Below are positions 472 through 64,000 of a stretch of 64,000 nt of DNA, piece by piece. The stretch's first letter is position 1. Each line of letters begins with the position of its first letter. Origin of the DNA: Solobacterium sp. (GTDB lineage: Bacteria > Bacillota_I > Bacilli_A > Erysipelotrichales > Erysipelotrichaceae); NCBI GenBank assembly GCA_017512555.1, contig JAFWFE010000035.1, positions 1 through 64,000 on the forward strand, written 5' to 3'. The notes beneath the pieces were generated by a model. The model searched no databases. It was given only the letters and a program-made list of their open reading frames with translations, and was not told where the DNA came from. Made by a program: the position numbers and the translations under genes.

Positions 472-500
472 TTCACAAAATGTGCTGATAATGGTAGAAT
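472..500 (+). promoter_or_regulatory. promoter of the glucosaminidase gene, predicted leaderless
   Basis: A -35 TTCACA (472-477), a 17-base spacer, and an extended -10 (TG at 492, TAGAAT at 495-500). The ATG at 508 lies 7 bases after the -10, so transcription should begin at or one base before the start codon. No Shine-Dalgarno is present, and a clean signal peptide starts exactly at this ATG. Confidence 0.6.
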
Positions 501-507
501 ATTATAC

Positions 508-3426
508 ATGCTTGAAAAACTTTACAAAAAAGCAGTAATTCTGATCGTTCTCGGCACATTTTTTTGTGGCTTTCTGCAGCCGGTATATGCGGAAGAGGAA
601 GAGGAGATCATCCCTTACACGGTAGTGGATTTTTCTTCCGATCGAGAGATTGATCAATTTCTCAGTTACAATGAAGCTTCCCTGTTTATGGATCAGGAAC
701 TGGAGAATTATACCAATCTCGGAATTAAGTACGGAGAGAAGATCCTGCGCGCAGAATATGCCTTGGCACTGATCCGCACCAGCGATGCCTGTGATGTCAA
801 TATCGGCTATGTGAATGCGGCTGACGGCATAGACGGTTATACCAACGGATGTTACGGCAAAGACGGTGCTTACCTCAAGACGAATGAAGCCGGAACACGG
901 ATCCAGTTTATGCTGTCCGGAGTCAAGGGCTGGGCTTCCGCAGAAGATATCGAGATTCTCCCGGTGGAACAGATCACAACAAGGATCACGGGTTATGTCG
1001 TTGACGAAGGCACTCTGTATCATGAAATCAAGAGTGAGATGACGGACGACAACTATGCCAGTATCATCAGTCAGGGCGAAGCACCGGACTACTTTGTGCC
1101 GGGAGATACATACTACAGTTATGACGGACACTACTTCTATGAAGAAGATCAGCTCAGAGACATGCTGGATGACTACCGGAACGATACCAGGGAAAACAGT
1201 ATCAATCCTGCTGATCCGTACTATAACTACTATCAGTTTGTCAGTCATCGGACGATTACCAACGCATCTCTAGCACAAGCAGAAGATGGACTGGAGAATA
1301 CTTTTGGTATTCTTGCGCCGATCGATGCCTACCAGGACGATGATAAAGATACCATTGATGATACGTTAAGCCGTTCGCAGTATGTCGGCAATCTTCCGGC
1401 ATTCTGGATGTACCAGTATGAATACGGAGCCAATGCCCTGATGATGATGTCTGTCAGTGCTCTGGAATCTTCCTTCGGAAGGAGTTCCCTGAGTTTTACC
1501 AGAAACAATCTGTTTGGACATGCGGCCTACGATACCGACCTGGAGGCTTCGTTATCCCGCTATCAGAGAATCGTAAATTCCGTCTACGCGCATGCCAGAT
1601 ACTATATCTCCGGAAGTTACTGCAGTCCTCTGCGTTCGCAGTATCACGGAGGCTTCTTCGGAAATAAATCTGCCGGGATGAATGTCAATTATTCTGCTGA
1701 CCCGTATTGGGGTGAGAAGGCTGCCGCGTATTACCAGCTTCTGGATCACCAGCTCAATGCCGGAGACAAGGACCAGTACACATTGGGTATCAAAACCAGT
1801 GAGGAGATCATCTTTGTCTACCAGACGCCGGAGATGAACGCCAAGGCTTTATATAAGATTTCAGAAAACCCGGATATGGCATTTGTGATCCTGGGAGAAG
1901 TTGTCAACGAAGAGGGTGAATGGTACAAGATACAGTCGGATGCCACACTGGATGAGACACAGGCTGTAGATCTTTCCTACGAGTATGACTATGCGAAGGA
2001 TATCGGGTATCTCCGCAAAGAAGACATCCAGATGATCCTGAAAGGTAAAGGCACAGATGAAGACTATGTGGAAGTTACCTTTAACGCTGCCGGAGGGCAT
2101 TTCAGCGGGGATGTACAGAAGATCAGTTACGCTTTACCGGCAGGCGGAGACGCCTCCGCAACCACACCGGAGAAGGACCATTCTCTCTTTGACGGATGGA
2201 GTTCTGAACTGACCGGAGTCAGCAGGGATACTGTCTTTACCGCGCATTACCGGGATGTAAGCGAGATCCGGATGAAAAATATCCCTCAACAGGACTACGA
2301 AGTCAATGACCGGATCAACCTTGCGGGTGGTATTGTCGAAGTCGTCTTTACGGACGGAGAAACCGCCGAATATCCTTTAACCACCTCCATGGTTACAGGC
2401 TATGACCTGATGCAGGAAGGCAAGGGAACGGTCACTGTCAACTATGCCGGCTGTTCCACATCCTACGATATTACCGTTGACGCGCAGAAAGACCAGATCC
2501 GTACCGATATCCGTGACCGCATTCTGGATGCCATCGAACTATACGGAGACAAGAATACCTTATCTACACTGGAAAGCCAGTATATCCTGGAACTGAAACA
2601 GAGAATTGACGCGAATGTCCTGCCTCAGCTCACCCAGACACAGTACCGGATCTTTGATCATCTTCTGGTCAAGGCCATTAATAACCGTGTCCGGTACATC
2701 GTTGAAGAAAACGAATATGACATGAGTGTTTCCGGATTGTCTCTTGCCTGTCCGTTAGAAGATTCCCTGGAGAAATCGTACTGGCTGGCGGATACCTACC
2801 GTGCCAATATCAAGAAAGGTATTCCGGAAGATTGTTACAACGTGATGTCCAAATCTGCCCTGTATCTGGAAAATGATATCAAGGATACCTTTACAATCAG
2901 TCTGGAAAAGAACTTTGAGACATACATCCCGCTGCAGCCTCTGTTATACACCATAAACAAACCGGAAGGCTTTACCGAAGGAGAAGTCTATACCGTATTG
3001 CATCATGCGGATAACGGAGACGTGGAGGAATGTTATACACGCCAGACCAGGAATAAGATCACCTTTATGGGTAAGGGAAGCGGAGAATACATGGTGCTAT
3101 CCCGCAGAACTTCCAACGATTATGCGGATGAAGATCCTGTCGAAGCCATCACGGTCGCAAATAGCGCTTATGACCTGCAGAAGACATTGATCGTTGTCGG
3201 TATTGCCTCGGCAGTGGTTCTGCTGATCATCGTCGTATGGCTGCTGACACACCGCCAGAAACGCCATAAAAAGCTGGAAGAGAAACGTACGATCAGTGAA
3301 AAACAACTTGATGACAAGCCTCTTCCTCCGGTAGATGTCACACAGGTATTCCAGGTCTTTGAGACAGAAGTACTTCACCTGGATGAGATCAGAGAGGCAG
3401 AAGAAAATGATCAACACGATCGTTGA
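508..3426 (+). CDS. secreted, membrane-anchored N-acetylglucosaminidase-like cell wall hydrolase
   Basis: 972 residues. A signal peptide covers residues 1-28 (cut after Val-Tyr-Ala). A region at about 40-270 includes an SH3-like stretch. A glucosaminidase-type domain spans about 285-420, with the probable catalytic Glu320 in Ala-Leu-Glu-Ser-Ser-Phe-Gly and an Asn-Asn-Leu-Phe-Gly motif after it. An InlB B-repeat-like module (about 521-590) and a bacterial Ig-like domain (about 590-660) follow. One membrane helix at about 893-915 leaves a basic then acidic tail of some 57 residues in the cytoplasm. It should cleave the glycan strand of peptidoglycan at the cell surface. The C-terminal membrane anchor, instead of LPXTG or wall-binding repeats, is less usual. 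The gene overlaps the next by 20 bases. Confidence 0.8.
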   Translation: MLEKLYKKAVILIVLGTFFCGFLQPVYAEEEEEIIPYTVVDFSSDREIDQFLSYNEASLFMDQELENYTNLGIKYGEKILRAEYALALIRTSDACDVNIGYVNAADGIDGYTNGCYGKDGAYLKTNEAGTRIQFMLSGVKGWASAEDIEILPVEQITTRITGYVVDEGTLYHEIKSEMTDDNYASIISQGEAPDYFVPGDTYYSYDGHYFYEEDQLRDMLDDYRNDTRENSINPADPYYNYYQFVSHRTITNASLAQAEDGLENTFGILAPIDAYQDDDKDTIDDTLSRSQYVGNLPAFWMYQYEYGANALMMMSVSALESSFGRSSLSFTRNNLFGHAAYDTDLEASLSRYQRIVNSVYAHARYYISGSYCSPLRSQYHGGFFGNKSAGMNVNYSADPYWGEKAAAYYQLLDHQLNAGDKDQYTLGIKTSEEIIFVYQTPEMNAKALYKISENPDMAFVILGEVVNEEGEWYKIQSDATLDETQAVDLSYEYDYAKDIGYLRKEDIQMILKGKGTDEDYVEVTFNAAGGHFSGDVQKISYALPAGGDASATTPEKDHSLFDGWSSELTGVSRDTVFTAHYRDVSEIRMKNIPQQDYEVNDRINLAGGIVEVVFTDGETAEYPLTTSMVTGYDLMQEGKGTVTVNYAGCSTSYDITVDAQKDQIRTDIRDRILDAIELYGDKNTLSTLESQYILELKQRIDANVLPQLTQTQYRIFDHLLVKAINNRVRYIVEENEYDMSVSGLSLACPLEDSLEKSYWLADTYRANIKKGIPEDCYNVMSKSALYLENDIKDTFTISLEKNFETYIPLQPLLYTINKPEGFTEGEVYTVLHHADNGDVEECYTRQTRNKITFMGKGSGEYMVLSRRTSNDYADEDPVEAITVANSAYDLQKTLIVVGIASAVVLLIIVVWLLTHRQKRHKKLEEKRTISEKQLDDKPLPPVDVTQVFQVFETEVLHLDEIREAEENDQHDR

Positions 3427-6065: not shown

Positions 6066-6095
6066 ATTATACCATGAAGGTTACAGGATATTGAA
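6066..6095 (-). promoter_or_regulatory. promoter of rqcH, near-leaderless
   Basis: On the minus strand an extended -10, TGG-TATAAT (TATAAT at 6071-6066), lies 9 bases before the rqcH ATG (6056). A weak TTCAAT-like -35 lies at 6095-6090. The predicted leader is 2-3 bases, and no ribosome-binding site is visible. Confidence 0.55.
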
Positions 6096-12060: not shown

Positions 12061-12927
12061 TCAATTCGGCGCGATATTCTTATGTTCTAAACGATAGAGT
12101 ACGATTTCGGCATTTGCCAGGAATCGTACATCTTTTATTGTGGTGCCTACACCATTGGTCACATCTACGGTATATAAGCCGTTGATCGTATGTTTGCCGC
12201 GCAGATACTTCTCTGCCATCTCCGGTTCCAGAAGAGAGCCGAAGAACCAGTAGACCTGGCCGCCGTGACTGTGCCCGGCAAGGAAATACTTGGTCAGATC
12301 AGAAGGCACATAATCCGCAGTATCCGGGGTATGACAGATTGTGATGGTATAACTGGTGCGTGAGACATTCGCGTAGGCCGCGTTGATATCCGCATAGCCG
12401 GTAAGACTATTATCCAAGCCAACCAGAACCACCGTATCCGTACCGGTATTATGGAGATTGAGGCTCTGGTTTTTTAATACTTCAAAGTCAGCGTCATATA
12501 GCACTGTCCGTACATTTGCCAGACGTTCTTCACTGCGTTCGTCGATATCTCCGAGGACCGCGAATTTGCCCAGGGGAGCTTCAATCTGTTTCAGCATACC
12601 TGACAGCGTACTCATTGAGCGCGGATTGACCGGGCGGGCATTCTGGTCAAACAGGTCACCGCCGAAGATCACCACATCCGGTGATAATTCATTCATAGTA
12701 CGTACTAATTTAGCCAGTCTTTGTTCATCCATGAAGTTGTTATAATCCAGGTCGGAAAAGTACAGGATCTTGACTCCGTCTAACTGTTCCGGAATATAGA
12801 TGGAAGATAATGTCTCATGACGGATCGTAAAGCGGGATGGGGCAGAATAAAAGGCGTCATAAGCCAAAGCTGACGCAAGCAGGAGGGTAAGAGAGAAAAC
12901 CAAAAGTATTTTATGCCAGATCTTCAT
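12061..12927 (-). CDS. membrane-anchored metallophosphoesterase-like protein with altered active site
   Basis: 288 residues. An N-terminal hydrophobic segment (about 5-22) should anchor it with the domain outside. It has the YkuE/YaeI-type calcineurin-like fold: Ser-Asp-Leu-Asp at 58-61 where the family has Ser-Asp-Leu-His, Gly-Gly-Asp-Leu-Phe-Asp at 89-94, Gly-Asp-Ile-Asp at 126-129 where the family has Gly-Asn-His-Asp, then Cys-His-Thr-Pro-Asp and Gly-His-Ser-His-Gly-Gly-Gln. Two metal or catalytic positions have therefore changed (His61 to Asp, the Asn-His pair to Asp-Ile) while the rest is intact. It may be a phosphodiesterase with different metal chemistry or a weakened enzyme. An extended -10 (TGC-TATGAT) lies upstream. 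Confidence 0.75.
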   Translation of the reverse strand: MKIWHKILLVFSLTLLLASALAYDAFYSAPSRFTIRHETLSSIYIPEQLDGVKILYFSDLDYNNFMDEQRLAKLVRTMNELSPDVVIFGGDLFDQNARPVNPRSMSTLSGMLKQIEAPLGKFAVLGDIDERSEERLANVRTVLYDADFEVLKNQSLNLHNTGTDTVVLVGLDNSLTGYADINAAYANVSRTSYTITICHTPDTADYVPSDLTKYFLAGHSHGGQVYWFFGSLLEPEMAEKYLRGKHTINGLYTVDVTNGVGTTIKDVRFLANAEIVLYRLEHKNIAPN

Positions 12928-12972
12928 GTACTATTCCCGCTTAATCATAGCACAATCAAAATGTTCTTGTTA

Positions 12973-12981
12973 TGGTATAAT
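12973..12981 (+). promoter_or_regulatory. extended -10 promoter, near-leaderless, of the HAD-like gene
   Basis: TG at 12973-12974, a G, then TATAAT (12976-12981). The ATG at 12991 is 9 bases after the -10, giving a leader of about 2-3 bases; another ATG follows at 12997. No Shine-Dalgarno and no clear -35 are seen. Confidence 0.6.
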
Positions 12982-12990
12982 ACCAACAAG

Positions 12991-21345: not shown

Positions 21346-21350
21346 CAAGG

Positions 21351-21359
21351 TGGTATAAT
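21351..21359 (+). promoter_or_regulatory. extended -10 promoter of ybeY, predicted leaderless
   Basis: TG at 21351-21352, a G, then TATAAT (21354-21359). The ybeY ATG at 21367 is 7 bases later, the expected transcription start. An AAGGTGG motif at 21347-21353 is 13 bases from the ATG, too far for a good ribosome site, but it could serve read-through mRNA from the upstream gene. Confidence 0.55.
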
Positions 21360-21366
21360 ACTATTT

Positions 21367-21819
21367 ATGATTATTACTGTATTGAATCGGACAAATCAGG
21401 ATATGAGTGCTTTTTCAGAGGATTTTGAAGTGATTTCACAGAGATGTGAGAAGGTCCTTAAACTGAATAAAGATAACGAAGTATCGGTCTCTTTTGTGCG
21501 TTCACGGACAATTCATCAGCTTAACCGGGATTACCGTAAGATCGACCGTCCTACTGATGTGATCACATTTGCGGCTATGGACGGGGAAGAAATCTATCCT
21601 GAGGGGGAACAATTCGACCTTGGAGATATCTTCATCAATATCGATTACGCGCGCAGACAGGCAGGAGAATACGGACATTCATTCCGCCGGGAGATCTGTT
21701 TCCTGTTTACGCATGGTTTATTACACTGCCTGGGATATGACCACCAGACGGCAGAAGAAGAAAAAGAGATGTTTGCGCTTCAGGAAAAAATCCTGGATTC
21801 GATCGTTCAGCGTATATGA
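21367..21819 (+). CDS. ybeY: rRNA maturation endoribonuclease YbeY
   Basis: 150 residues with the metal-binding His116-x3-His120-x5-His126 motif (His-Gly-Leu-Leu-His-Cys-Leu-Gly-Tyr-Asp-His). YbeY is a zinc-dependent RNase for 16S rRNA 3'-end maturation and ribosome quality control, and works with Era and S11. Here era lies two genes downstream. Its stop overlaps the dgkA start (ATGA). Confidence 0.93.
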   Translation: MIITVLNRTNQDMSAFSEDFEVISQRCEKVLKLNKDNEVSVSFVRSRTIHQLNRDYRKIDRPTDVITFAAMDGEEIYPEGEQFDLGDIFINIDYARRQAGEYGHSFRREICFLFTHGLLHCLGYDHQTAEEEKEMFALQEKILDSIVQRI

Positions 21820-59000: not shown

Positions 59001-59513
59001 TCACAGTTGAAGAACATACTCGATTCCCTGAACGACAGAGAGCTGGTACAGTCCGTTTTCTTCTTTCATGATATCGGCTTTAAAGCGTCTGTTTGCGGTA
59101 AATCCCGAGGCTTCCATCAGTTTTACTGCGGGGAGATTATCCTGACGGATATAGGCATGGATGGATGTACACCAGTGAATTTGTCTGATCATGGCAATTG
59201 CCTGACGTAAGGCTTCCGTACCATACCCCTGATGTGTAAATCTCTGTTTCAGAACGATATCGATCTCAGCGCTTTGATCCGGACTGCGGAATAAATCAAT
59301 CTTTCCGATAATCCCTTCATCATGCATAACGGCCAGACACAGTAAAGGGAGACCGTTGGTTTCTCCGATACGGATCGCATTCAGGTATTGCGCGGTTTTT
59401 GACTCGGGCAGAGGGACAGGCAAAGCGACCAGACAATATTGCTGATCTACTTCCGCGTATAATTGTTCCAGGGATGCCGCATCATCCGCAGGCCATGGCA
59501 GTACGACGATCAT
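59001..59513 (-). CDS. GNAT family N-acetyltransferase
   Basis: 170 residues from the ATG at 59513, 6 bases after a -10 box; an ATG at 59519 abuts that box and cannot be in the transcript. The GNAT core has Gly-Lys-Ile-Asp-Leu, Gln-Gly-Tyr-Gly-Thr-Glu-Ala-Leu (acetyl-CoA binding) and Asn-Leu-Pro-Ala-Val-Lys-Leu-Met-Glu-Ala-Ser-Gly-Phe. It belongs to the RimJ/RimL-like group that acetylates protein N-termini or small amines. The substrate is unknown. It faces away from the ABC transporter genes. Confidence 0.85.
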   Translation of the reverse strand: MIVVLPWPADDAASLEQLYAEVDQQYCLVALPVPLPESKTAQYLNAIRIGETNGLPLLCLAVMHDEGIIGKIDLFRSPDQSAEIDIVLKQRFTHQGYGTEALRQAIAMIRQIHWCTSIHAYIRQDNLPAVKLMEASGFTANRRFKADIMKEENGLYQLSVVQGIEYVLQL

Positions 59514-59519
59514 ACCCAT

Positions 59520-59528
59520 ACTGTACCA
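59520..59528 (-). promoter_or_regulatory. extended -10 promoter of the GNAT gene, leaderless
   Basis: On the minus strand, TGG followed by TACAGT (59525-59520). The ATG at 59513 lies 6 bases downstream, at the expected start of transcription. No ribosome-binding site is present. Confidence 0.55.
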
Positions 59529-59602
59529 TGAAATCCTGGATTTCCTGTAGATCTTTTCGGAGGAAGAGAAGCAATCTTAAACGCAGGAAAAATGATTTAT
59601 AG

Positions 59603-59608
59603 TACAAT
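59603..59608 (+). promoter_or_regulatory. -10 box of the ABC transporter genes, leaderless
   Basis: TACAAT at 59603-59608, with the ATG at 59615 only 6 bases later. No TG extension and no clear -35 are seen, and no Shine-Dalgarno lies before the ATG. Confidence 0.45.
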
Positions 59609-59614
59609 ATATGT

Positions 59615-60316
59615 ATGAGTTATATCGAGTTTTCTGATGTCACAAAGATCTATCATGTCGGTGAAGTAGATATCCACGCCTTATCCGGAACAACTTTTTC
59701 TATTGAGAAGGGACAGTTTGTGGTGATTGCGGGAGCCAGTGGTGCCGGCAAGAGTACAATTCTGAACATCCTGGGAGGAATGGACACCTGTACAGATGGA
59801 GAAATCACTGTAGATGGTGTGCGCGTGGATCAGATGGATGAAAATGAACTGACGGATTACCGGCGGTATGATATCGGTTTTGTCTTCCAGTTCTATAATC
59901 TTGTGCAGAATCTGACCGCGCTGGAAAATGTGGAACTGGCTACGGAAATCTGCAGAGATCCCCTGGAACCTGCGGAAGTACTGAAACAAGTTGGTCTGGA
60001 AGATCGTATGCATAATTTCCCGTCACAATTATCCGGCGGTGAACAGCAGCGTGTGGCAATTGCCAGAGCTTTAGCCAAGAATCCCAAGCTTTTACTTTGT
60101 GATGAACCTACAGGCGCATTGGATTATGTTACCGGAAAACAGATCCTGAAACTTCTTCAGGATACCTGCAGAACTTATGGTATGACCGTAGTGATTATTA
60201 CCCACAACCTGGCTTTATGTCCCATGGGAGATAAAGTACTGAGAATCAAGAGCGGAAAAGTAATATCCGAAGAAGTGAATGAACACCCGCAGGATATCGA
60301 AACGATCGAATGGTAA
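59615..60316 (+). CDS. ABC transporter ATPase, MacB/LolD type
   Basis: 233 residues. Walker A Gly-Ala-Ser-Gly-Ala-Gly-Lys-Ser, Q-loop, signature Leu-Ser-Gly-Gly-Glu-Gln-Gln-Arg, Walker B [10 protein letters not shown], and a switch His in Ile-Thr-His-Asn. These are typical for ATPases that drive FtsX/MacB-type permeases. It works with the next gene. The start has a -10 only 6 bases upstream and no ribosome site, so it is predicted leaderless. Confidence 0.92.
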
Positions 60317-60320
60317 ACCT

Positions 60321-63300
60321 ATGCCAAAGACAATGAGAAAGGACATTTGGCGGCTGATTAAAGCGTCCAAAGGACGCTTTCTTTCGTTAACCATGATCGT
60401 CATGATCGGTATGGCTTTTTTTATCGGTGTTTCTTCCTCTTCTTCCATCATGGCAAAGAATGTGGATGCGTACAGTGACCGGCTGAATCTGAAGGATATC
60501 ACGATCTATTCCAACTACGGATTTGATGAAGAAGACCTGGAAAAGATCCGGAGTCTGGATATGGTAGCATCTGCAGAAAGCAGTAAGTTTGTGGATGTGT
60601 ATGCGGCATCCGAAATCAATGCGTCTGTTGCCCGTATTCATTCCTATGATCCTGACGCAAAGATCAATCAATTCATCCTGGTAGAAGGCAGACTGCCGGA
60701 GAAGAAAAATGAAGTACTTGCGGAAGGCGGTACGGATATGGACCCGGGACCTGCCATAGGCAGTGTGCTGACACTGACCAGACCGGCAGATGACCTGGAA
60801 GACTGGCTGGATGTATCACAGATCACGGTAGTTGGACGTATCGACACACCGCTGTATCTGAATATGACCAAAGAAAACAGCACTCTGCAAAACCAGTACA
60901 TCCAGACATATTTCTATATCCCAGAAGAAGCATTCAATATTGATTACGATCTGGAAATCAGTGTCCTGCTGAAGGATGCCAAGAGTTATCAGTCTTTTTA
61001 CAGTGCTTACGAAAAATTCGCGGAAGATGCCAGGCAGAAGATTGAGGATGAAACCGAAGATCAGATCGGTCACCGACATGATGAAGTTCTTGAGGATGCC
61101 TGGAAAGAATACAATGACGGTTTGAAAGAATATAACGACGGAAAACAGGAATTTGACGAGAAGATTGCGGATGCCGAAAAGGAAATCGCCGATGCGGAAG
61201 CGGAGATCGCGGATGGCCAGAAAGAAATCCGTGACGGTGAGAAAAAACTGCGGGATGCCCAGAAGGAACTCGACGATGCTGAAGAAGATGGTTACCGGCA
61301 GATCCGCGAAGCAAGAGCGGAGATCTCCCGCGGACAAGGCAAATTGCAGGACGGTATCGAAGAATTCGAACAGACCAAGAAAGAAATGAAGCAATACAAG
61401 GAGATGATCGATGACGGTATTGCGCAATTGGAGGAAGGTATCGCCCAGCTGAACCAGGCACAAGACGGTCTTTCCCAGATCGATGACGGTATCGAACAGC
61501 TGAATAACGCGGAAGCACAGATCCAGGAAGCCGCTGACGGATTGCGCCAGATCAATGACGGTATCGCTCAGATCGATGAGAATTTACCAGCTGTCGAACA
61601 GGCAGAAGCCTATCTTGCCCAGATTGAAGAAGGAATTAACCAGCTGGAAACCGCTTCATCCGCATTGTCACAGATCGATGCCCAGCGCAGTGAGATCAAT
61701 GAACAGATCGAGTCTTTGACCACTGTAAAAAACACGATTCAGAATCTTCTTGACCGGAATATCCTCACCCCGGATACGCCGGTATCCATGTTGACAGCGA
61801 TGAGCCCGGATCTGAAAAAAGTCGCAGATAGTCTGGATCTTCCGGAAGATGCGGATATCCAGGACTTCATGGATGCCATAGATACCGCTCTGGCCCAGGC
61901 TGATGCCGGTCTTACCCAGTTAAACAATGCCCGCAGCCAGATCACTCAGGGATTACAGGCGCAGGGATATTCAGAAGAAACCCTGAGTGATACCATCGCA
62001 TCCCTGAAAGAAAGCCGCCAGCAGATCCAGAATAGTCTTAACGGACAAAGTTCAGCGGCGCTAAGGGCGCAGAGAGAAGAACTGGTAAACCAGAAAGCTC
62101 AGATTGAACAAGCACTCTCTGCGCAGGGAATCAACCCGGATGATACGGATACGGCATTGGCAGGAATACGCGCGCAGAAAGAAGCACTGCAGGCGCAGAG
62201 ACAGCAGATCGTGGATACGCTTGCGGCCCAAGGGATCGATGCGTCCGACATACCCGGAGCCATTGCGGAAATGCAGAAAAAGATCAGCGAACTGCAGGCA
62301 CAGAAGAAACAGATCGATGATGGTCTGAAGAGCGCGGAAGAAGAGATTCTCGCAAACATGGAATTGCTGGACCGGGCGTATGCCGCAACCGTAAACGCTG
62401 CCGCAGAACTTGCACAGGAAGTGGAAGACGCCCAGAAAGAGATCAATGACGGCTGGGCAGAGCTGGAAGAAAACCGCCAGAAACTTCAAGACGGCATAGA
62501 AGAACTGGAAGATGCCAGGAAAGAGCTGGAAGATGCCAGAATCGATGGTGAACAGGAGTTGCAGGATGCCGAAGCAGATCTGATCAAAGCCAAACAGGAC
62601 ATTGAAGATCTGGAAGAAGGAAAATGGACGATCCTGGACAGACAATCCCATTATGCCAGCCGGACATACAAGGGAACCGTGGAAACCATGGAAGCGATCG
62701 CTGCCGTATTCCCGCTATTCTTTATCATGGTGGCTGCTCTGGTATGTCTGACCACGATGACACGGATGGTGGATGAACAACGCGGGCAGCTCGGAATCAT
62801 GCGCGCACTGGGATATACCCAGTTCCAGTGTGCATCAAAGTATCTGATTTATGCTGGTCTGGCATCCCTGATCGGGGAAGTTGTAGGGTCTGTTTTAGGT
62901 ATCCTGATCATCCCTCCGATCGTCTATACCGCCTGGAAGATGATGTATATTCTTCCGGATATGAAGATCTATATCCCGTGGCATCTGATTTTGGTGGCTT
63001 CACTGGTGTTTATGGCAGTAATGCTGGTGACGACGTGGAGGGCATGCCGCGGTGATATGAAAGAAGTACCGGCGCAGTTACTGCGTCCGAAAGCTCCGAA
63101 ACTAGGCAAGAATACGATCCTGGCAAGAATACCGTTCATCTGGAATATGATGTCTTTTACCTGGAAGGTTACGATTCGCAACCTTGTCCGGTATAAGAAA
63201 CGATTAGTCATGACAATCATCGGGGTTGCCGGCTGTACCGCATTATTGATCACCGGTTTTGGTGTTCGTGATTCCATCAACTCCATGGTGGATATCCAAT

Positions 63301-64000
63301 TTGGTGAAATCATCCTGTACGAAGGAAGTGTAAAAGCCAAAGATCTTAAACCCAGTGAAATGAATACCCTTATGCGTGAAGTACAGGCAAGGGATGATGT
63401 AGAACAGGTCTATCTGGTCGGCGGATATGCCGCATTATGTACAGGTAAAACAAAGAATCTGGAAGAGACCGTGAGCGTACAGGTATTTGAAGATCCGGCA
63501 ATGGTCAGGAATGTCTATGATCTGCGTACAAGGGTTGGTCATAAACCATTATCTCTTAGTAATGAAGGTGTGATCATCAGTGAGCGTCTGTCGGAGAATC
63601 TTCACGTTAAGAAGGGAGATACTCTTACCCTTGAAAGCAGTACCGGTGTACGCCGGGAAGTTGTCATCTCGGAGATCTGTGAGATGTATATCAATCACTA
63701 TCTCATGATGACACAGGAGTATTACCGGAAAGTATTTGGGACGAAAATTGCCCAGGATACGATGTTGGTGAAGATCAACGGGGATAAGGATGTAAGCCAG
63801 GTATTCCAGCAGGAGATCGTCAAGGATGAACGTATTTCCGAGATCACGTTCTATCAGACCATACTGGAAAACTTCAAGACGATGGTCAACAGTATTGATC
63901 TGATCGTCTGGGTTCTGATCATCAGTTCCATGTCTCTGGCATTTGTCGTGCTTGGCAACCTGATGAACATCAATATCAGTGAGCGTCAGAGGGAAATCGC
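60321..64000 (+). CDS. FtsX-like ABC permease with giant extracellular coiled coil, 3' end outside window
   Basis: At least 1226 residues, still open at the window end. A first membrane helix at about 17-37, an extracellular MacB-like part (38-255), a very long coiled coil (about 259-766) rich in Asp-Gly/Glu-Leu/Gln-Ile repeats, three membrane helices at about 790-815, 843-870 and 887-905, then a second FtsX half from about 943 with a helix at 960-985 and another starting near 1195. Such proteins are mechanotransmitters that act on extracellular targets, such as antimicrobial-peptide, cell-wall or lipid substrates. It starts 4 bases after the ATPase gene, with no clear ribosome site, so coupling is likely. 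Confidence 0.88.
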   Translation, partial: MPKTMRKDIWRLIKASKGRFLSLTMIVMIGMAFFIGVSSSSSIMAKNVDAYSDRLNLKDITIYSNYGFDEEDLEKIRSLDMVASAESSKFVDVYAASEINASVARIHSYDPDAKINQFILVEGRLPEKKNEVLAEGGTDMDPGPAIGSVLTLTRPADDLEDWLDVSQITVVGRIDTPLYLNMTKENSTLQNQYIQTYFYIPEEAFNIDYDLEISVLLKDAKSYQSFYSAYEKFAEDARQKIEDETEDQIGHRHDEVLEDAWKEYNDGLKEYNDGKQEFDEKIADAEKEIADAEAEIADGQKEIRDGEKKLRDAQKELDDAEEDGYRQIREARAEISRGQGKLQDGIEEFEQTKKEMKQYKEMIDDGIAQLEEGIAQLNQAQDGLSQIDDGIEQLNNAEAQIQEAADGLRQINDGIAQIDENLPAVEQAEAYLAQIEEGINQLETASSALSQIDAQRSEINEQIESLTTVKNTIQNLLDRNILTPDTPVSMLTAMSPDLKKVADSLDLPEDADIQDFMDAIDTALAQADAGLTQLNNARSQITQGLQAQGYSEETLSDTIASLKESRQQIQNSLNGQSSAALRAQREELVNQKAQIEQALSAQGINPDDTDTALAGIRAQKEALQAQRQQIVDTLAAQGIDASDIPGAIAEMQKKISELQAQKKQIDDGLKSAEEEILANMELLDRAYAATVNAAAELAQEVEDAQKEINDGWAELEENRQKLQDGIEELEDARKELEDARIDGEQELQDAEADLIKAKQDIEDLEEGKWTILDRQSHYASRTYKGTVETMEAIAAVFPLFFIMVAALVCLTTMTRMVDEQRGQLGIMRALGYTQFQCASKYLIYAGLASLIGEVVGSVLGILIIPPIVYTAWKMMYILPDMKIYIPWHLILVASLVFMAVMLVTTWRACRGDMKEVPAQLLRPKAPKLGKNTILARIPFIWNMMSFTWKVTIRNLVRYKKRLVMTIIGVAGCTALLITGFGVRDSINSMVDIQFGEIILYEGSVKAKDLKPSEMNTLMREVQARDDVEQVYLVGGYAALCTGKTKNLEETVSVQVFEDPAMVRNVYDLRTRVGHKPLSLSNEGVIISERLSENLHVKKGDTLTLESSTGVRREVVISEICEMYINHYLMMTQEYYRKVFGTKIAQDTMLVKINGDKDVSQVFQQEIVKDERISEITFYQTILENFKTMVNSIDLIVWVLIISSMSLAFVVLGNLMNINISERQREI

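Follow-up and report, generated by a model that had tools for sequence, protein, structure and literature searches.

Which genes in this stretch of a Solobacterium genome are transcribed from promoters so close to the start codon that their mRNAs would have no leader? The window, that is, the whole stretch of 64,000 nucleotides that was analysed, contains six genes in which a -10 hexamer ends 6 to 9 nt before the ATG. A sequence-only reading had proposed that these genes give leaderless mRNAs and form a definable class. Our analysis indicates that vegetative promoters located at start codons very probably give rise to leaderless or near-leaderless mRNAs in this uncultured gut bacterium, beside a majority of genes led by a Shine-Dalgarno (SD) sequence.

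NCBI taxonomy places Solobacterium within Erysipelotrichaceae, Bacillota. The host genome comprises 2.58 Mb in 100 contigs, and the window corresponds to contig 56. The RqcH protein encoded in the window is 99% identical to RqcH of a goat-jejunum MAG named Solobacterium sp., and 63-76% identical to RqcH of other rumen or gut Solobacterium and Erysipelotrichaceae MAGs. SD use is general in the host, with 62% of genes having a duplex dG below -6. The 16S rRNA anti-SD sequence GGATCACCTCCTTT was not found in the host assembly, probably because the rRNA genes are missing from it, and a search of the window for RNA families returned no match.

Hexamers at six start codons in the window

We defined the spacer as the number of nucleotides between the end of the hexamer and the ATG. 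The glucosaminidase-domain gene (PF01832; 508..3426, forward strand) is preceded by TAGAAT at 495..500 on the same strand, with a TG at 492-493 and a spacer of 7 to the ATG at 508, a promoter assigned from the sequence and from orthologues. At ybeY (PF02130; 21367..21819, forward), a TATAAT with TG (21354..21359, forward) also lies 7 nt before the ATG at 21367, giving the gene a putative promoter of its own. The GNAT acetyltransferase gene (PF13302; 59001..59513, reverse) has TACAGT with TG at 59520..59525 (reverse), 6 nt from the ATG at 59513, which is the weakest of the six, and the ABC transporter ATPase gene (PF00005; 59615..60316, forward) has TACAAT without TG at 59603..59608 (forward), 6 nt from the ATG at 59615. 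For rqcH (NFACT domains, PF05833; 4413..6056, reverse) and a HAD-like hydrolase gene (PF13344/PF13242; 12991..13764, forward), a TATAAT with TG is found at 6066..6071 (reverse) and 12976..12981 (forward), respectively, each with a spacer of 9 to the ATG (6056 and 12991). All six hexamers and start codons thus lie where the sequence-only reading had placed them, at the distances of 6 to 9 bases that it gave, and the upstream TG that it reported for five genes stands one base before the hexamer in each of them, the exception being the ABC ATPase gene.

In sigma-70-type promoters, transcription usually starts 6-7 nt after the -10 hexamer. At this distance, transcription of the glucosaminidase, ybeY, GNAT and ABC ATPase genes would begin on the ATG, and all four are predicted to be leaderless; rqcH and the HAD gene would receive leaders of 2-3 nt. 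For these two genes such short leaders are likelier than none, so the claim of leaderless mRNAs has to be relaxed: the HAD gene is predicted to be near-leaderless and rqcH leaderless or near-leaderless.

The assignment of individual starts differs in firmness. The GNAT hexamer has two mismatches from the consensus, and a second in-frame ATG (59519) lies at spacer 0; in an orthologue (L154), however, TACAAT stands 6 nt before the equivalent ATG, which favours the start at 59513. The GNAT and ABC ATPase genes diverge, and the 101 bp gap between them (59514-59614) holds both start-codon hexamers. After the ABC ATPase gene, an open reading frame of 1240 aa or more (60279-63998, forward) runs past the end of the window; judged by position, it probably encodes the permease of this ATPase. 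Within 12940-12990, the HAD promoter is part of a near-palindrome, CTTGTTATGGTATAATACCAACAAG. Upstream, ATCATAGCACA reads on the opposite strand as an extended -10, TGCTATGAT, for a divergent gene (12061-12927), and many HAD orthologues share an ATnATACCACA-like element in their upstream regions.

The statement that these genes lack an SD at the usual spacing is true as worded, but ybeY has a possible distant one: AAGGTGG (21347-21353) ends 13 nt before the ATG, has a duplex dG of -9.3 and shares bases with the extended -10; it may act as a ribosome site at a distance. In addition, ybeY begins only 21 bp after the preceding gene, and in other species it has an SD, no promoter and an operon-like arrangement. 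These features would fit a dual use of the region, in which ribosomes mostly use distant sites on longer upstream or read-through transcripts, the promoter at the start codon playing a minor part. However, most start-codon promoters predicted across the genome lie in non-coding gaps without an SD, and no strong SD lies upstream of the glucosaminidase gene or of the GNAT/ABC pair. We therefore regard dual use as an unlikely explanation for the set.

Within the window, a hexamer at spacers 6-9 was found in 6 of 57 genes, compared with 2 at control spacers 12-15 and 5 at 0-3. This count is not above chance, so the window alone proves nothing. Together with the poor GNAT hexamer, it is what would be expected if the hexamers were chance AT-rich matches beside ATGs, or had been cherry-picked in one window. 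The counts from the genome and its relatives bear directly on this possibility.

Spacing across the host genome and its relatives

We called 1031 genes in stretches amounting to 1.11 Mb of the host genome, with start codons set by a simple purpose-made gene caller. Contigs matching one pattern supplied most of the first 20 stretches, a mild selection; the next 20 were taken without it. TATAAT-like hexamers (TAnnnT, at most one mismatch) were counted by their distance to in-frame ATG starts. Spacers 6 and 7 gave 28 and 24 matches, compared with about 8 per position nearby, that is, 52 matches versus 16.4 expected from neighbouring spacers (p = 2e-12). Removal of the window left 49 versus 15.8 (p = 2e-11). 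The comparison that the sequence-only reading had proposed, a genome-wide count of -10 boxes near starts set against a null, likewise returned an excess, as a position-specific first-order Markov null predicted 10.5 +/- 4.3 matches at spacers 6-7 where 52 were observed. A second, broad peak at about 18-30 nt is separate from the 6-7 nt peak and corresponds to ordinary leaders. These data suggest start-codon promoters at no fewer than 3-4% of host genes; the excess of about 3.5% is a minimum estimate, as the count was limited to strong hexamers and spacers 6-7. Since about 16 of the 52 matches are expected as background, individual genes stay uncertain.

The peak at exactly 6-7 nt, its departure from the Markov null, its presence in two relatives and absence from a sister family, and the conservation of hexamer and spacing in orthologues (see below) refute chance as an account of the set, for which we consider it very improbable. 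Individual genes may still be chance matches, GNAT being the most likely one.

An SD (dG below -6) was found at 6% of spacer 6-7 starts and at 72% of starts with spacers of 18-24 in the host genome. Part of this contrast is a matter of geometry, since the SD position is taken up by any hexamer at spacer 6-9. A different concern is that the promoters are real and the start codons wrong, with translation beginning at a downstream SD-led start behind an ordinary short leader. The scan did yield one clear case: in a RidA-like gene (L083:18961-19359, forward), GGAGGTGA lies between the ATG at spacer 6 and another ATG 18 nt downstream. The start reads ATG AGA GGA GGT GAA GTA ATG, with a strong SD between the two ATGs, so that the scan probably returned a false positive here, the gene being an ordinary SD-led one. 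In the window, the HAD gene also has another ATG 6 nt downstream, from which some of its orthologues align. Nevertheless, orthologue alignments of rqcH, ybeY and the glucosaminidase gene begin at or near residue 1, and a randomly placed ATG would give no 6-7 nt peak. Moreover, GTG/TTG starts gave 17 versus 10.9 matches (p = 0.05), with a clear peak for ATG only. Misplaced starts are a most doubtful explanation of the pattern as a whole.

The same peak was observed outside the host. In two relatives, picked for high pattern counts and analysed over about 0.3 Mb each, spacers 6-7 gave 20 versus 3.2 matches (G023, the genus of the window) and 18 versus 2.6 (G138, another genus of the same family; 14 of the 18 at exactly 6 nt), which would place start-codon promoters at about 6-7% of genes in these two samples. 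The same analysis of a sister-family control (G041) gave no 6-7 nt peak (5 versus 7.2).

We then compared whole-genome counts of TATAAT-N6,7-ATG with those of TATAAT-N12,13-ATG. The genus of the window had 1541 versus 929 (19 genomes), and two other genera of the family had 476 versus 232 and 1320 versus 690; several further genera of the family had roughly equal counts, and the sister family showed no excess (10873 versus 10918; 43 genomes). The counts show that the predicted trait is lineage-restricted: it runs through the genus, is patchy within the family and is absent from the sister family. Two genomes of the same family (G079 and G096, about 2.3 Mb each) had 0-1 TATAAT-N-ATG matches at either spacing where relatives had tens; perhaps they are very GC-rich or use another promoter consensus. 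Most families in the sample of the wider class showed no excess at spacers 6-7. A genus of another family in the same class (g71, family f5) had 1852 versus 1105 (22 genomes of about 1 Mb or less each), a pattern suggestive of leaderless genes in a separate lineage. The phylum survey covered mainly small genomes of the same class, and so it shows other candidate lineages and not their frequency in Bacillota.

The proposal that this lineage uses such mRNAs for a definable gene class did not hold. The 41 genes with a spacer of 6-7 and no SD in the sampled host stretches have mixed Pfam content, including DNA polymerase III delta, CCA-adding enzyme, MnmA, Maf, RdgB/Ham1 and Ppx/GppA as well as a MATE transporter, glycosyl hydrolases, a LysR regulator and lipoprotein-like proteins. 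Signal-like N-termini were in excess among them in the host genome (20 of 41, versus 48 of 235 leadered genes; p = 3e-4), but no such excess was found in the two relatives (3 of 14 in each of G138 and G023), and a functional class defined by signal-like N-termini was rejected. A distinctive promoter type was also rejected, as TG and -35 elements are about as frequent as in leadered promoters: an upstream TG, present at 5 of the 6 window genes, occurs in 24% of the genome-wide set with spacers 6-7 and in 25% of leadered promoters, and -35 similarity (at least 4 matches) in 20% and 21%, respectively.

Leader length and ribosome sites among orthologues

Orthologues were compared for five genes, counting only hexamers with at most one mismatch from TATAAT, a rule under which the GNAT TACAGT scores as none. 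Orthologues with a spacer of 11 or less (n = 36) had a median SD dG of -1.75, with 8% below -6, and those with a spacer of 14 or more (n = 34) had a median of -9.55, with 82% below -6 (p = 1e-11). This contrast shares the geometric limit noted above; the presence of an SD in most long-leader cases is independent of geometry. The genes compared are the same genes that raised the question, and with them removed the loci of the genus still peak, less strongly (14 versus 4.2, p = 1e-4).

Across orthologues, the hexamers are conserved while the flanking sequence diverges. The -10 of rqcH is kept in nearly all relatives, at spacers of 6, 6, 6, 7, 9 and 9 or of 16-29 (17 in L044); an SD accompanies every long spacer, and a strong SD none of the short ones. 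For ybeY, orthologues with spacers of 6-11 are mostly without an SD and those with spacers of 16-23 mostly with one. The glucosaminidase -10 (TAAAAT/TAGAAT) lies at 6-8 nt in 11 of 16 orthologue rows, down to about 43% protein identity, and two HAD orthologues have spacers of 8 (L124) and 7 (L126). Leader length and SD therefore covary.

On the RqcH tree, the two leader states need 4 changes (bootstrap range 2-4), and the well-supported branches force just one. We lean slightly towards the view that, in this branch of Erysipelotrichaceae, the rqcH and ybeY promoters switched repeatedly between leaderless and SD-led states through leader length, and that each change brought loss or gain of the SD. 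In our preferred reading these promoters are not new constructions: at rqcH and ybeY a -10 of one kind persists between species, the leader grows or shrinks, and the SD follows. Of these results, the proposed change of leader state at conserved promoters attracts most interest. Orthologues with and without a leader at the same promoter offer matched pairs bearing on why leaderless translation is gained or lost and, if switching did occur, the genus would be a natural series of such pairs for asking what selects it.

Proposed mechanism and known leaderless systems

Taken together, the 6-7 nt peak, its recurrence in independent genomes and the loss of the SD in short-leader orthologues support the core of the leaderless proposal, rqcH and the HAD gene apart. 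In the model that we favour, sigma-A type (vegetative) promoters would have a -10 ending 6-7 nt before the ATG, and RNA polymerase would start on the A of the ATG (spacer 6-7) or 1-4 nt earlier (spacer 8-10). An mRNA starting at the ATG has no room for an SD, and the ribosome is predicted most likely to recognise the 5'-terminal AUG directly. The promoter side of this model is well supported; the exact transcription start, the sigma factor and the mode of ribosome binding are inferred. Direct ribosome binding at the 5'-terminal AUG has been described for leaderless mRNAs of other organisms (PMC6431027 and references therein).

Zheng et al. (2011) described TA-led leaderless genes, in which a -10-like TAnnnT/TATAAT lies about 12 bp upstream of the start, with Firmicutes cases concentrated in Lactobacillales (Lactococcus-Streptococcus, Oenococcus-Leuconostoc) and Mycoplasma (PMC3160421). 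The present genes resemble those of that survey in the distance of the -10 and in the coexistence of SD-led genes; the surveyed genes of low-GC Firmicutes often have an upstream TG. Erysipelotrichaceae are not named in the parts consulted (PMC3160421). By dRNA-seq, leaderless mRNAs account for 8.6% in S. pyogenes and about 9% in S. agalactiae and S. pneumoniae (PMC6431027). As in these streptococci, the predicted leaderless mRNAs are a minority in a lineage of Bacilli; the streptococcal set is conserved between species, with starts that were measured and 81% conserved between two species, whereas ours are predicted from sequence, and species differ in leader state at rqcH and ybeY (PMC6431027). 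In Deinococcus-Thermus, a -10 motif likewise abuts the ORF and drives leaderless expression, but at about 30% of ORFs and with reporter tests, compared with a predicted 3-7% or so here (PMC12340547). Within Bacillota, leaderless mRNAs have been mapped in Enterococcus (<1%; PMC7724050) and Clostridioides difficile (15 genes; PMC7438776), and the predicted level in the present lineage is several-fold higher. The sequence-only remark that leaderless mRNAs are rarer in Bacillota fits this literature, with streptococci, Lactococcus and Mycoplasma as established exceptions.

Our literature search, which mostly did not reach subscription papers, found no report of leaderless genes in Erysipelotrichaceae. 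Given the streptococcal, Lactococcus and Mycoplasma cases, what we describe would be a new lineage for a known mechanism. It would extend non-canonical translation start to a gut and rumen lineage of Bacillota, in which gene finders relying on ribosome sites may misplace such starts. Among the other host loci, holA (DNA polymerase III delta; L003:12027-13010, reverse) carries TGGTATAAT at spacer 6; in two enterococci, a subunit of DNA polymerase III, which may differ from holA, has likewise been reported as leaderless (PMC7724050).
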